19,414 nucleotides of DNA from positions 1-19,414 of the forward strand of contig SVMQ01000009.1 in NCBI GenBank assembly GCA_015067375.1. Reading direction: 5' to 3'. The DNA comes from Oscillospiraceae bacterium. Its GTDB lineage: Bacteria > Bacillota > Clostridia > Oscillospirales > Ruminococcaceae. Both the position numbers and the translations under genes were made by a program. The notes below the pieces were generated by a model. It searched no databases. It was not told the DNA's origin and saw only the letters and a program-made list of their open reading frames with translations. Shown piece by piece: positions 8,713 through 13,877 of the stretch. The first letter of the stretch is position 1. Every line of letters begins with the position of its first letter.

Positions 8713-10155
8713 TTATGCCTCGTTGATAGCCTTGATAAGAAGCTCTCTGAGCATATCGGGCGAGCAGTTGCCCTTGAGCTGCTTCATGCACTTTCCGAAA
8801 AGTGCCATCAGCGCCTTTTCCTTACCGCTCTTGTAGTCGTTTACGGAGCGTGTGTCCTCTGCAACTACTGCCTTGATAACAGCCTCGATAGCGCCTGTAT
8901 CGTTGGATACGATGAAGTTGTTATCCTTAGCGTACTGCTCGATATCAGCGATCTCCTCGTCGAACATCGTGTTAAGTATCTTCTTTGCATTGCCGCGCTG
9001 TACCTTGCCGTCAAGCACCAGCTTGATGAGCTTGCCGAGCGCCTTGCCGTCGATGGTGAGATCGTCAGCGATCATCTGACGCTTGTTGAGGATGTTGGAG
9101 CAATCCGAGATGAGCCAGTTTGCAACCTCCTTGGGCTGTCCGCACTCGTCGCACGCAGCCTCGAAGCAGTCACAGAATGCTCTGCTCTGTGTGAGCTGCT
9201 CAGCGTCGTATTCAGTAAGACCAAGCTCGCTGATGTAGCGCGCCTTCTTTACTTCGGGAAGCTCGGGGAGCGAAGCCTTGATGCGGTCGAACCACTCGTC
9301 GTCGATAACGATGGGCATGATGTTGGGGTCGGGGAAGTAGCGGTAGTCGCCTGCTGTTTCCTTGTTACGCATAGCGTAGCTCTTGCCCTTGATGTCATCC
9401 CAGCGGCGTGTTTCCTGTACAAGCTCCTCTGTGCCGTTTTCGAGAGCGTCGATGTGGCGTGCGGTCTCGTACTCGATAGCGCGTGTTATAGCGGAGATGG
9501 AGTTCATGTTCTTCATCTCGGTACGCACACCGAGCTTGTCGCTGCCCTCCTCGCGCACGGAGAGGTTAACGTCGCAGCGCATAGAGCCCTGTTCCATACG
9601 GCAGCCTGATACCTTTGCAAAGCGCAGACGAGAACGCAGCTGCTCGAGGTATGCGACTACCTCCTCGGCAGAGGAAAGGTCGGGCTGGGAAACGATCTCG
9701 CACAGCGGAACGCTTGTTCTGTTAAAGTCAACGAGGGTAGTGTCTGTCCAGTCGTCGTGGACGAGCTTGCCTGCATCCTCCTCCATGTGTATCTGCTTGA
9801 TGCGGATGTTCTTCTTGCCCTTGCTTGTTTCGATCGGAACAGTACCGTTGATCGCAACGGGGCTGAACCACTGTGTGGTCTGATAAGAGCAGGGGAGGTC
9901 GGGGTAGTAGTAGCTCTTCTTATCGAATGTGGTAACGCGGTTGATGTCGCAGTTGAGCATAAGACCTGCTGTCATGCCGAGGTCAACGACGTGCTTGTTT
10001 ACGATGGGGAGCATACCGGGCATACCGCAGCAGGCGGGGCAAACGTGGTCGTTCTGCTCGCCGCCGAATTTAGCGGAGCAGGAGCAGAATATCTTTGACT
10101 CGGTGGCAAGCTCGATATGAACTTCCAGACCGATGACGGTTTCGTACTTTTTCAT
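8713..10155 (-). CDS. gatB: Asp-tRNA(Asn)/Glu-tRNA(Gln) amidotransferase subunit GatB
   Basis: The transamidase subunit of GatCAB, 480 residues. It activates the side chain of misacylated Asp-tRNA-Asn or Glu-tRNA-Gln with ATP and joins it to ammonia. The N-terminal IGLEVHIEL, the zinc cysteines C24, C26, C39 and C42 and the IHMEEDAGK motif with acidic residues for metal binding are all intact. The C-terminal helical/YqeY-type tRNA-binding tail is present, so the length is normal. I place the start at ATG 10155: AGGAGG (10165-10170) is nine bases upstream and family members begin at this residue. An in-frame upstream extension exists but overlaps gatA. One base separates it from the gatA stop, indicating coupling. 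It appears fully functional, in contrast to its GatA partner. Confidence 0.95.
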   Translation of the reverse strand: MKKYETVIGLEVHIELATESKIFCSCSAKFGGEQNDHVCPACCGMPGMLPIVNKHVVDLGMTAGLMLNCDINRVTTFDKKSYYYPDLPCSYQTTQWFSPVAINGTVPIETSKGKKNIRIKQIHMEEDAGKLVHDDWTDTTLVDFNRTSVPLCEIVSQPDLSSAEEVVAYLEQLRSRLRFAKVSGCRMEQGSMRCDVNLSVREEGSDKLGVRTEMKNMNSISAITRAIEYETARHIDALENGTEELVQETRRWDDIKGKSYAMRNKETAGDYRYFPDPNIMPIVIDDEWFDRIKASLPELPEVKKARYISELGLTEYDAEQLTQSRAFCDCFEAACDECGQPKEVANWLISDCSNILNKRQMIADDLTIDGKALGKLIKLVLDGKVQRGNAKKILNTMFDEEIADIEQYAKDNNFIVSNDTGAIEAVIKAVVAEDTRSVNDYKSGKEKALMALFGKCMKQLKGNCSPDMLRELLIKAINEA

Positions 10156-10156
10156 A

Positions 10157-11362
10157 TTACTTGTCCTCCTTTTCAAAAGCAGCGGCAGCGTCGAGCAGTG
10201 CCTGCTCGGAGAACGCCTTGCCTATCAGCTGAACTCCGCCGACAACTGCAGCAGGAAGTCCTGTGAGGGAAGCGGGAGCGGTGTACAGCGCCTCGTCAAA
10301 GGAGAGGTACTTGTTCGCCTTTACATCATCCATCGTGTAGGAGGTCTTAGCGCAGGCAGGCATCAGCACTGCATCGTACTCCTTGAATATCTCGGCAAAT
10401 GCCTCAACGACAACGCGGCGGATGCGCAGGGACTTGTCGTAAACTCTCATGTAATTATCGGTGGACAGTGTTTCGGAGCCGAAGAGGATAATAGTTTTGA
10501 GCAGCTCTCCGAATGCCTCTGTACGGCTGTTGGTGTACAGCTCCTCGATGGTCTTGTAGTTGCTTGTGCGGTGGCCATACTTAACGCCGTCGAAGCGGGA
10601 AACGTTGTTGCACAGCTCCGCGCTCATGCATACGTTCCATGCTGTCTTTGCGAGAGCAAGGGTGGTATCGTCTATCTCAACGAACTCGATGCCCTGTGCG
10701 GACATGACCTCGCGGAACTTTGCAAGCTTTGCCTTTGTTGCGTCATCTGCACTGTCGCAGATGGACTTTGCAACAGCGATCTTCTTTATCTTTGTGAAGT
10801 CAGCGCCGTTCTTTACCTGTGCGCACTCAGCCTCGGAAAGGCTCGTGCCGTCCTTGTCGTCGTGACCTGCGATAGCGGAGAGCACCTTGCCACAGTCTGC
10901 AGCGTTGTTAGCCATAACGCCCACGGTCTCACCCGAGCAAGCGATAGCGATGGTGCCGTATCTCGAAACAGTGCCGTAGGTGGGCTTGATGTAGGTCTTG
11001 CCGCAGAGTGCCGCAGCACGTCTGGGTGTACCGTTGATGTCAAAGCAGAGAGCGGCGGTTGCTTCACCTGCATTGAGCCACTCGGCACACGCATTTGTCA
11101 GTGTGCCATCATCCTTTGCGCAAGCGCCGTAGTAGGATGTTTCGCCAAGCAGGTCAACGGAGAACTCTCCAACATTTGCCTTGCCTGCTATATCGTAGCC
11201 GGCAGCGGAGAGCTTTGAAATGACCTCCGCGTCAAACAGGCTCATGTATCCTTTAAGCATCATGGAGCCGCCTGTTGTGGGCATATCCTTTGTGAGGAAC
11301 AGGTCGTCCAGCACTACCGCATTTGCGGAAGCTTTTTCGTTTTTGTTAAGATATATATTCAT
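10157..11362 (-). CDS. gatA: GatA-like amidotransferase subunit lacking the catalytic triad
   Basis: GatA normally hydrolyses glutamine and channels ammonia to GatB, using a Ser-cisSer-Lys triad of the amidase-signature family. This homologue has 401 residues against roughly 480-490. It is clearly related: TTGGS, GKANVGEF, IKPTYGTVSRYG (125-136) and ASLTGLPA align well. The triad is gone. The Lys of the (V/I)KDN motif is Asp19 (VVLDDL), the GGSSGGS stretch with the cis-Ser is deleted (WLNAGEATAAL), and the nucleophile in DTGGSIRQP is Thr112 (DINGTPRR). About 50 N-terminal residues are also missing. The frame is unbroken and codon use matches its neighbours, so this is not a decaying pseudogene. 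Start chosen at 11362 (AAAGGA nine bases upstream). Inference: a structural subunit, with GatB using free ammonia or another source. Confidence 0.87.
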   Translation of the reverse strand: MNIYLNKNEKASANAVVLDDLFLTKDMPTTGGSMMLKGYMSLFDAEVISKLSAAGYDIAGKANVGEFSVDLLGETSYYGACAKDDGTLTNACAEWLNAGEATAALCFDINGTPRRAAALCGKTYIKPTYGTVSRYGTIAIACSGETVGVMANNAADCGKVLSAIAGHDDKDGTSLSEAECAQVKNGADFTKIKKIAVAKSICDSADDATKAKLAKFREVMSAQGIEFVEIDDTTLALAKTAWNVCMSAELCNNVSRFDGVKYGHRTSNYKTIEELYTNSRTEAFGELLKTIILFGSETLSTDNYMRVYDKSLRIRRVVVEAFAEIFKEYDAVLMPACAKTSYTMDDVKANKYLSFDEALYTAPASLTGLPAAVVGGVQLIGKAFSEQALLDAAAAFEKEDK

Positions 11363-11385
11363 CGTCATTCGTCCTTTCCGCAATA

Positions 11386-11667
11386 TCAGTCAACAGTGCG
11401 GGGTACCTGCCAGTAGCCGTCTGTTGTTTCGGGAGCGCCCTTCTGCAGGTCGTCGCGCTCGAACAGCTTCTTCTCGATGTCCTCGCGTACTACGGTCATG
11501 ATAGGCATAACGTGTACCATGCGCTCTACCTGCTCTGTGTCCTTTGTGTAGAGTTTGTCTATCTCCTGCTCCTGCTTTGCGAAGAAGGCGAGAAAATCGT
11601 CCTTCTGTTCTTCTGTCAGTGAAAGCTGGTTGAGCTTTTCAAGACGTCTTAATACATCTCTGTCCAT
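11386..11667 (-). CDS. gatC: Asp-tRNA(Asn)/Glu-tRNA(Gln) amidotransferase subunit GatC
   Basis: A 93-residue subunit that wraps around the GatA-GatB interface and stabilises the complex. Family features are the N-terminal helix LNQLSLTEEQKDDFLAFF, the central DTEQVE and VREDI segments, and the tail LQKGAPETTDGYWQVPRTVD. I place the start at ATG 11667, where AAAGGA lies eight bases upstream; an in-frame extension to 11733 lacks family similarity and overlaps the intergenic hairpin region. It is followed by gatA after 23 bases. The gene order gatC-gatA-gatB is the usual one. Confidence 0.93.
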   Translation of the reverse strand: MDRDVLRRLEKLNQLSLTEEQKDDFLAFFAKQEQEIDKLYTKDTEQVERMVHVMPIMTVVREDIEKKLFERDDLQKGAPETTDGYWQVPRTVD

Positions 11668-11735
11668 GAATCTTGTCCTTTCGAAAACACAAATATCGTG
11701 AGGCGAACAAAGCGTCAGCCGCAAGTCAGCCATCC

Positions 11736-11819: not shown

Positions 11820-13571
11820 TTAATCTCTTACCTTGATGTGAACTTCTCTGAGCTGCTGCTCTGTTACCTCGCCGGGCGCACCCATCATCAGATCCTGTGC
11901 ATTGCCGTTGAGCGGGAATGCGATAACATCGCGGATGGTCTCCTCCTCAGCGATCAGCATTATCATTCTGTCTACGCCGGGAGCCATACCTGCATGGGGA
12001 GGTGCGCCGAATGTGAACGCTGTATACAGCGCGCCGAACTTCGCCTTTACATCCTCCTCGCCGTAGCCCGCGATCTCGAATGCCTTCTTCATGATCTCGG
12101 GATTGTGGTTTCTTACAGCGCCAGAGGACAGCTCGATGCCGTTGCATACGATGTCATACTGGTAAGCGAATATCTCAAGCGGATCCTTGTTAAGCAGCGC
12201 GTCCATACCGCCCTGGGGCATGGAGAAGGGGTTGTGAGTGAAGTCGATCTTGCCGGTTTCCTCGTTCAGCTCGTACATGGGGAAGTCTACGATAAAGCAG
12301 AAGTCAAAGCGGCTCTCGTCGATGATCTCCATGCGCTTTGCTACCTCAGTTCTGATCTGACCTGCGAACTTGGGTGCATTCACCTTGCTGTCAGCGATGA
12401 AGTAGAGGACATCGCCCACCTCGAGTGCGCAGCGCTCTGCAAGCTCTTTTCTCTGTGCGTCGTCAAGGAACTTGTCGATGGGGCCGTTGTACTTGAAGCC
12501 GCCGTTCTCGCCCTCTTCTACCTTGAAGTAGCCGAGACCCTTCATGCCTACCTCAGTTGTAGCAAACTCCTCCATGCTCTTGAAGAAGGTCTTGGAGCGG
12601 CTTGCCATCTGGGGAACGCGGATGCCTCTTACGCACTTGTTGCAGAAAGGCTTGAACTCGCTGTCAACGAACAGGTCGGACAGCTCAACGATAACGAGGG
12701 GGTTGCGCAGGTCGGGCTTATCTGTGCCGTACTTCAGCATGGACTCCTCAAAAGGAATACGTGCGAACGGGGGCTTGGATATCTCCTTGCCTGTGAACTC
12801 CTTGAATGTGTTGTAGATAACGGTTTCAGCTACCTCGAATACATCCTCCTGCTCAGCGAATGCCATCTCAAAGTCGAGCTGGTAGAACTCGCCGGGGGAG
12901 CGATCCTGTCTTGCGTCCTCGTCGCGGAAGCAGGGCGCGATCTGGAAGTAGCGGTCGAAGCCGCTTGTCATCAGCAGCTGCTTGAACTGCTGAGGAGCCT
13001 GAGGCAGAGCGTAGAACTTGCCCTTGTGCTTTCTGCTGGGAACGAGGTAGTCACGCGCGCCCTCGGGGGAGGAAGCTGTGAGGATAGGCGTCTGGATCTC
13101 AAGGAAGCCGAGATCTTCCATCTGACGTCTGAGGAAGCTCAGTATCTTGGAGCGCAGAACTATATTATCGTGGATCTTCTTGTTTCTGAGGTCGAGGTAG
13201 CGGTACTTCAATCTCAGATCCTCTCTGGTCTGTGTAGAATTGTCGATCTCGAAGGGCAGACCCTGACAGCAGGGGCCGAGTACAGTGAGAGTATCAGCCT
13301 TGACCTCGATAAGACCTGTCAGCAGCTTGGGGTTTACAGTTTCCTCATCTCTGCGTGTAACTGTACCGCTGATCTGGACTACTGTTTCCTTGGAGATGCC
13401 GTCAAGCAGGCTGTCGTCGGACAGTACGACCTGTGTCACGCCGTAGTGGTCGCGCAGGTCAACGAAGATAACGCCGCCGTGGTCGCGTACTGTGTCTACC
13501 CAGCCCGAGAGCTTGACGCTCTGACCGATGTGTTCTACATTGAGTTCGTTGCAGGTGTGTGTTCTAAGCAT
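11820..13571 (-). CDS. aspS: Aspartyl-tRNA synthetase, probably non-discriminating
   Basis: A 583-residue class II synthetase that attaches Asp to tRNA. The N-terminal OB-fold anticodon-binding domain (1-100) is followed by the catalytic core, with YLDLRN, motif 2 around 215-236 (FRDEDARQDRSPGEF) and motif 3 GMAPGVDRMIML near the C-terminus. A GAD-type insertion lies in between, as in bacterial enzymes. The DHGG loop places His at position 31, the position where His is associated with recognition of both tRNA-Asp and tRNA-Asn in Pseudomonas aeruginosa AspRS (discriminating enzymes such as that of E. coli have Leu). HNPFSMPQGG replaces the HHPFTAP of E. coli. Together with gatCAB in the same unit and the Asn T-box, this points to a non-discriminating enzyme. 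AAGGAG lies eight bases before the ATG. Confidence 0.95.
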   Translation of the reverse strand: MLRTHTCNELNVEHIGQSVKLSGWVDTVRDHGGVIFVDLRDHYGVTQVVLSDDSLLDGISKETVVQISGTVTRRDEETVNPKLLTGLIEVKADTLTVLGPCCQGLPFEIDNSTQTREDLRLKYRYLDLRNKKIHDNIVLRSKILSFLRRQMEDLGFLEIQTPILTASSPEGARDYLVPSRKHKGKFYALPQAPQQFKQLLMTSGFDRYFQIAPCFRDEDARQDRSPGEFYQLDFEMAFAEQEDVFEVAETVIYNTFKEFTGKEISKPPFARIPFEESMLKYGTDKPDLRNPLVIVELSDLFVDSEFKPFCNKCVRGIRVPQMASRSKTFFKSMEEFATTEVGMKGLGYFKVEEGENGGFKYNGPIDKFLDDAQRKELAERCALEVGDVLYFIADSKVNAPKFAGQIRTEVAKRMEIIDESRFDFCFIVDFPMYELNEETGKIDFTHNPFSMPQGGMDALLNKDPLEIFAYQYDIVCNGIELSSGAVRNHNPEIMKKAFEIAGYGEEDVKAKFGALYTAFTFGAPPHAGMAPGVDRMIMLIAEEETIRDVIAFPLNGNAQDLMMGAPGEVTEQQLREVHIKVRD

Positions 13572-13622: not shown

Positions 13623-13877
13623 AAAAACAAAAAAGATGTCATTCGCCCGAACATGGGACGAAAGACATCTTCCGCGATACCACCCAAATTGACCGTTTCC
13701 GATCCACTCAATTTCATCTTTACGCAATGTAACGTGCGGTTCTACTGACGCATAAAAGCGCGTTCTTCCGCAAGCTCCGAAGTGTTTTTCATGCAGGCGC
13801 ATTGCTGTTTCGCACCACACAACAGCTCTCTGGTAACACGTTACCGCACTACTCTCTTCATCACAGCCACTTTTAAC
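13623..13877 (-). promoter_or_regulatory. T-box leader of aspS-gatCAB with an Asn (AAC) specifier
   Basis: Read on the minus strand. The T-box GGGTGGTATCGCGG lies at 13672-13685. The terminator stem AAGATGTC...GACATCTT (13633-13671, with inner TTCGTCC/GGGCGAA) ends in a T-run. Stem I carries AGAGAG, GGTGCGAAAC and the AGTA/GAA loop-E elements. The specifier position, just before ACTTCGGAGC, reads AAC (13784-13786), an Asn codon. The Trp T-box at 16408 has its codon in the same place (TGG before ACCGCTGAGG), which supports this reading. Uncharged tRNA-Asn would prevent termination. An Asp codon (GAC) is not found at this position. Confidence 0.9.

Follow-up and report, generated by a model that had tools for sequence, protein, structure and literature searches.

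A GatA-like subunit without its glutaminase active site in a predicted asparagine-specific GatCAB operon of Oscillospiraceae and relatives

Where would a GatCAB amidotransferase obtain its ammonia if its GatA had lost the glutaminase active site? The question is raised by an operon in a 19,414-nucleotide stretch of contig SVMQ01000009.1 from an Oscillospiraceae bacterium (the window, by which we mean the whole stretch analysed), in which a T-box leader precedes genes for a second aspartyl-tRNA synthetase (AspRS2), GatC, a GatA relative and GatB (Table 1). Accounts of tRNA-dependent asparagine synthesis have it fed by glutamine, and homology annotation assigns cells with this gene a glutamine-dependent enzyme that is probably not theirs. 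The sequence comparisons below support well a glutaminase-less amidotransferase dedicated to asparagine; its catalytic activity and its ammonia source we infer. If this is true, protein asparagine in a widespread clade depends directly on ammonia, and the gene opens questions about the role of GatA beyond glutaminase activity, the entry of ammonia to GatB and the replacement of a glutaminase by an asparaginase-fold protein. In a literature search with limited reach into subscription papers, we found neither a GatA described as lacking its Ser-cisSer-Lys triad nor an account of such an operon.

Table 1. Features of the operon in the window
Feature	Position	Strand	Basis and remarks
gatB	8713..10155	-	NF004012, 589 bits; likely start ATG at 10155
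gatA-like gene	10157..11362	-	401-aa GatA-like protein; lacks the triad (Ser, cis-Ser, Lys) and both Gln-binding residues (Arg, Asp)
Thr codon at nucleophile Ser178 position	11027..11029	-	Alignment with S. aureus GatA (2df4)
Leu codon at cis-Ser position	11099..11101	-	Alignment; Leu/Ile or gap in relatives
Asp codon at catalytic Lys79 position	11306..11308	-	Alignment with S. aureus GatA (2df4)
gatC	11386..11667	-	TIGR00135, 61.2 bits (cut-off 47.1); likely start ATG at 11667 (inspection)
aspS2	11820..13571	-	NF001750, 782 bits; bacterial-type AspRS with His31 (RDHGG)
T-box leader	13651..13873	-	Rfam RF00230, 117.2 bits (gathering 93); specifier loop GAAA-AAC-A

The frame that holds the GatA relative (10157-11383, minus strand, with its start ATG at 11362) matches the Pfam Amidase family (3.3e-53), and its best model class is GatA, yet it reaches 264 bits with TIGR00132 against a cut-off of 481. 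The protein is 74-84 residues shorter than five aligned GatA proteins (475-485 aa), mostly at the N terminus, and its Pfam match begins at profile position 54. Alignment with Staphylococcus aureus GatA confirms what the original prediction had read from the DNA, namely Asp at the catalytic Lys and Thr at the nucleophile Ser, at the codons it had named. The GGSSGGS stretch carrying the cis-Ser, which the same prediction took to be deleted, is instead replaced: the cis-Ser is indeed gone and a six-residue gap lies just upstream, but its position is occupied by Leu within the segment GTLTNAC, 24 residues before the nucleophile position. The Arg and Asp that bind glutamine are missing as well. We take the S. 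aureus cis-Ser and nucleophile to be S154 and S178, and the Gln-binding residues to be R358 and D425. For yeast GatA, the accessible part of one paper gives the glutamine-binding residues as R334 and D418 (PMC4027206). The window protein thus fails a defining feature of GatA, and it is called GatA-like here.

The rest of the complex and the fold are retained. Against two congeners (G026 and G028; dS 0.84-1.0), dN/dS is 0.09 and 0.18 for the gatA-like gene, 0.05 and 0.10 for gatB, and 0.08 and 0.12 for aspS, and by these ratios the gatA-like gene is under purifying selection. In an AlphaFold2 model (mean pLDDT 93.1, pTM 0.93) the GatA fold is preserved; the best PDB matches are GatA subunits of GatCABs, the first being 2df4_A (TM 0.86 by query). 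GatB and GatC, earlier described as normal, bear this out, GatB scoring over the cut-offs of three NCBIfam models and GatC over that of TIGR00135 (its longest open reading frame starts at 11733). Among 96 GatB columns that are invariant in 83 canonical sequences, 71 are kept and 25 are not in 51 GatB proteins partnered with GatA-like ones. The kept columns include E10, H12, K79, E124, E125, D192 and E210, so that the kinase/transamidase active site is, on column conservation, preserved. Some residues are specific to these partners, such as His at S. aureus Q231.

To what extent are the losses shared? Our relatives' set held 417 rows, 398 of them distinct since some genes occur twice, made up of 57 locus rows and 360 clusters, the latter the best 120 of 5531, 2253 and 3564 matches from three protein searches. 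The queries were the window protein, a deep-branch GatA-like protein (L045) and a spirochaete one (L068), and rows were picked by similarity rather than by triad, with the exception of L068 and L062, which were assigned by sequence. Lys79, Ser154, Arg358 and Asp425 are each kept in none of the 417 rows; Ser178 is retained in 91, and no row has all three triad residues. The 91 canonical GatA controls keep Ser154, Ser178, Arg and Asp throughout and Lys in 90, the single miss being an alignment gap. Recurrence of the same losses in 417 related rows rules out random decay or a sequencing mistake in a single genome. The possibility raised in the original prediction, that the losses are general in the lineage, is therefore borne out by this survey, and its proposal that selection has kept GatA while glutaminase activity was lost is well supported by the shared losses together with the dN/dS ratios.

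Source names among the listed matches are Oscillospiraceae, Ruminococcaceae, Acutalibacteraceae, Clostridia, Spirochaetes and one Planctomycetaceae metagenome-assembled genome (MAG). Within the window's order the gene occurs in 17 of 394 sampled genomes spanning nine families, and within its genus in 3 of 37, those three having 3-9% estimated contamination. A quick tree of 93 GatB sequences, run without bootstrap, unites 49 partners of GatA-like proteins with that of the spirochaete L068 in one branch (SH-aLRT 100), and a single origin of the gutted GatA is thus the simplest reading. The Spirochaetes bacterium has a gutted gatA of its own at L068:8070-10629, with gatB next and no aspS alongside; L068-type proteins, with Glu in place of the catalytic Lys, constitute a third subfamily of large size. 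Reading frames of the gatA-like gene are broken in L046 and L048, and those of G192 and G218 have one stop each; these interruptions may be assembly error or decay.

A scan of 84,980 named genomes yielded, from the best 80 matches, at least 33 loci with a GatA-like protein at 44-65% identity, largely in MAGs from herbivore guts. The next gene is gatB in all 33, and an aspS frame was seen in 30; L048 and L059 start at or near gatA, and L034 has no adjoining aspS. AspS is 691-748 residues long in 20 loci, and its extra C terminus is GatC in the three proteins checked. From these lengths gatC appears often to be fused to aspS in relatives; in the window the two genes are separate. No neighbour family occurs in more than 7 of the 33 loci, which gives no conserved third operon gene. 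The largest such family led to an asparaginase-fold gene; the second largest, present in 5 of 33 loci, pointed to a gene identified by eye as AlaX-like. This AlaX-like (alanyl-tRNA editing) gene lies directly after gatB in L038, L047, L053 and L059, also by eye.

Two features of the operon point to asparagine as the product. The T-box specifier in the window, read from the covariance alignment, is AAC, an Asn codon. Covariance alignment gave the same specifier in L224, L225, L231 and L232, and a pattern search gave the same specifier octamer in ten further loci, so that AAC is found in all 15 leaders read; the leader pattern search takes in GGGTGGCA forms. Of 46 loci tested, 41 have the GGGTGGYA core ahead of aspS, and aspS is cut in two of the misses (L053 and L055). 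Only L033 among seven loci passes the Rfam T-box gathering threshold; the deep-branch leaders of L038 (51.6 bits, E 2e-10) and L050 (39.7 bits, E 2e-7) both stand outside the 15 specifiers read. A Gut-1 RNA (RF01706) and a tRNA are found just upstream of the operon leader in L050 (L050:6221-6295, minus strand). The second feature is His31 of AspRS2, which we take to be a mark of the non-discriminating enzyme and which is present in all 29 sequences aligned (28 of the 33 loci and the window). The equivalent residue is His in both aligned AspRSs that act on Asp and Asn and Leu in Escherichia coli; eight carrier genomes have Leu (six) or Lys (two) there in their stand-alone AspRS. Both features agree with the amidation of Asp-tRNA-Asn that the original prediction had named as the pathway served.

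The carrier set searched for other routes to Asn-tRNA and Gln-tRNA comprised 29 of the 33 genomes with the loci above and six more, 35 in total; nearly all are MAGs, with completeness stated for six, so that absences can be gaps. A canonical GatA or a fragment of one was found in 13, the window's genome included, AsnB over the cut-off in 16, AsnA in none of the 35, and AsnRS over the cut-off in six; G074, with one sub-cut-off AsnRS match of 191 bits, is left out of the following count. Sixteen carriers have neither canonical GatA nor AsnRS, which leaves this GatCAB as their sole visible route to Asn-tRNA, and ten of the sixteen are also without AsnB over the cut-off. GlnRS exceeds its cut-off in 28 carriers, comprising 21 of the 22 without canonical GatA and 7 of the 13 with it, as expected if the complex does not serve Gln. 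G062, with neither canonical GatA nor GlnRS over the cut-off, and G065, with a second gatB and no second gatA, hint at missed genes and are doubtful members of the sixteen. Seven carriers (G069, G071, G078, G079, G081, G085 and G087) have both canonical GatA and GlnRS over the cut-off; according to the accessible part of one paper, the two routes to Gln-tRNA were not then known to occur together in any bacterium (PMC4206432).

We consider it likely on these comparisons that the operon encodes an asparagine-dedicated GatCAB with its own AspRS, in which the GatA-like protein is no glutaminase and ammonia comes from outside it. Uncharged tRNA-Asn would turn the operon on via the T-box, and AspRS2 would charge tRNA-Asn with Asp, whose side chain GatB would activate with ATP and then amidate. 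The GatA-like protein would serve the complex structurally and might also form the entrance of the ammonia tunnel, at which the former Lys position nearly always carries an acidic residue. The ammonia, probably not made by this subunit, would be either free or a partner's, the two options that the original prediction had named. Free ammonium is the simplest source and would serve most or all carriers, with some possibly drawing on a linked asparaginase-fold hydrolase. GatFAB uses NH4Cl as amide donor in vitro, as stated in the accessible part of its description (PMC4027206).

The candidate partner is the divergent asparaginase-fold gene from the neighbour analysis. Its close form (338-400 bits) is present in 10 of the 394 genomes of the order, all among the 17 carriers (10 of 17 against 0 of 377 non-carriers; Fisher 9e-16), and a looser form (139-208 bits) in 14, three being carriers; in these counts the profile was built from operon-linked genes, the 139-bit line is a chosen one and the carriers are related. 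Four of the 17 carriers have neither form, and the window's genome (G000), one of the four, has no match at 139 bits or more. Of 49 operon loci, 14 have the close form linked to the operon, where it follows gatB or precedes the T-box and lies on the same strand in 12 cases, compared with none of 47 control loci (L066-L112, 46 canonical and L068); G047 and G060 were left out of the linkage count, having been selected for the gene. Some form is found in all 16 carriers without canonical GatA and AsnRS (close in eight, looser in eight) and in 6 of 18 other carriers (G074 left out). Examples of the gene lie at L033:5424-6509, L035:10890-11942 and L050:11630-12652, with 11 further operon loci.

All 19 aligned rows (two genomes occur twice) retain the nucleophile Thr and the Thr-Asp pair but have Gln in place of the catalytic Lys. 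An invariant YHS(G/D/Q) motif is also present. A model built from six sequences (pLDDT 72) matches type I asparaginases first, with GatD at ranks 43 and 48; the three proteins compared with the GatD models fall below their cut-offs, and the GatD N-terminal domain is absent.

Such a protein may supply ammonia or may merely recycle free Asn. Its association with carriers, its linkage to the operon, its presence in all sixteen genomes without the other routes and its retained Thr and Thr-Asp residues favour a hydrolase that passes ammonia from an amide to the complex, as a bacterial parallel of archaeal GatDE. We regard this as rather unlikely, given the substituted Lys, the four carriers without either form, a fold nearer type I asparaginase than GatD, the missing N-terminal domain and the way in which profile, threshold and carriers were drawn; recycling would also suit cells without AsnRS, in which free Asn is unchargeable. 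A broader version is slightly less likely still: the amidase-class glutaminase of GatCAB would have been replaced by the operon-linked asparaginase-class hydrolase, partnerless carriers living on environmental ammonium. GatA would then have lost its site a single time and survived as a scaffold and entry port for ammonia, and the hydrolase, with a rebuilt Thr-Thr-Asp-Gln site, would feed it, converging on archaeal GatDE.

The remaining alternatives are far less probable. Canonical GatA, or its ammonia, might be borrowed from a second GatCAB of the same cell, as the 13 carriers with such a GatA or a fragment, the window's genome among them, would allow; this is very improbable, for in the other 22 canonical GatA gave no match, and a single GatB is present in 21 of them. 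Pseudoenzymes in general can take on another, for instance regulatory, role, and a complex that no longer amidates tRNA would be an example; we give it just as little credence, since the active-site columns of GatB are kept, the operon combines an Asn T-box with a second AspRS, and sixteen genomes would be left without Asn-tRNA. Least probable of all is a GatA-like protein that still acts as a glutaminase with a different set of residues in the former site. That site is not random, with Asp or Glu in place of Lys in 401 of 417 rows and a largely conserved Trp in place of Tyr309 (291 rows), but both Gln-binding residues are lost in all rows, the nucleophile position varies widely and no new invariant Ser/Cys-Lys set could be seen in A3.

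The complex described here shares with the bacterial GatCAB the GatA fold, the GatB active-site columns, GatC and the order gatC-gatA-gatB. It differs in the absent triad and Gln-binding Arg and Asp, the shorter GatA N terminus and, in many relatives, the GatC-AspRS fusion. Clostridium acetobutylicum reportedly has a T-box-controlled AspRS2-GatCAB for tRNA-Asn, said to have been described by Saad in 2012 and 2013. Its T-box leader over a second AspRS and gatCAB resembles the arrangement here, whereas its GatA is taken to be an ordinary glutaminase. The Asn-transamidosomes of Pseudomonas aeruginosa and Thermus thermophilus (PDB 4wj3 and 3kfu) likewise hold AspRS with GatCAB on tRNA-Asn and have matching GatA folds; in many relatives here AspRS and GatC would be one chain, and the GatA-like protein has lost the site. 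Human carbamoyl phosphate synthetase 1, in the accessible part of one account, keeps an inactive ancestral glutaminase part and uses external ammonia (PMC4655335). On that account it is like the complex proposed here, although the enzyme and glutaminase class are unrelated and one Cys has changed there rather than a whole site. Archaeal GatDE would be alike if the asparaginase-fold partner supplies ammonia, but that partner lacks the GatD N-terminal domain and catalytic Lys and adjoins the GatA-like gene and gatB rather than GatE.

The window's genome is itself a MAG, 73.8% complete, in which AsnB is present and neither AsnRS nor GlnRS exceeds its cut-off. The second gatA that the original prediction proposed to look for was found in part: a canonical gatC-gatA start stands on contig C208 and is cut by the contig end. 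A second gatB lies on contig C231. The operon flanks differ in G026 and G028, which, with the presence of the gene in so few members of the genus, fits horizontal gain or movement without proving it; an assembly join at the operon may also have occurred in the window's contig. A contaminant contig was considered and rejected, as most members of the genus have a match to the window's transketolase at 69-99%. The neighbourhood of pseudouridine synthase, HAD and transketolase genes is shared with G016, G026 and G028, and this shared left side indicates that the left part of the window is native.
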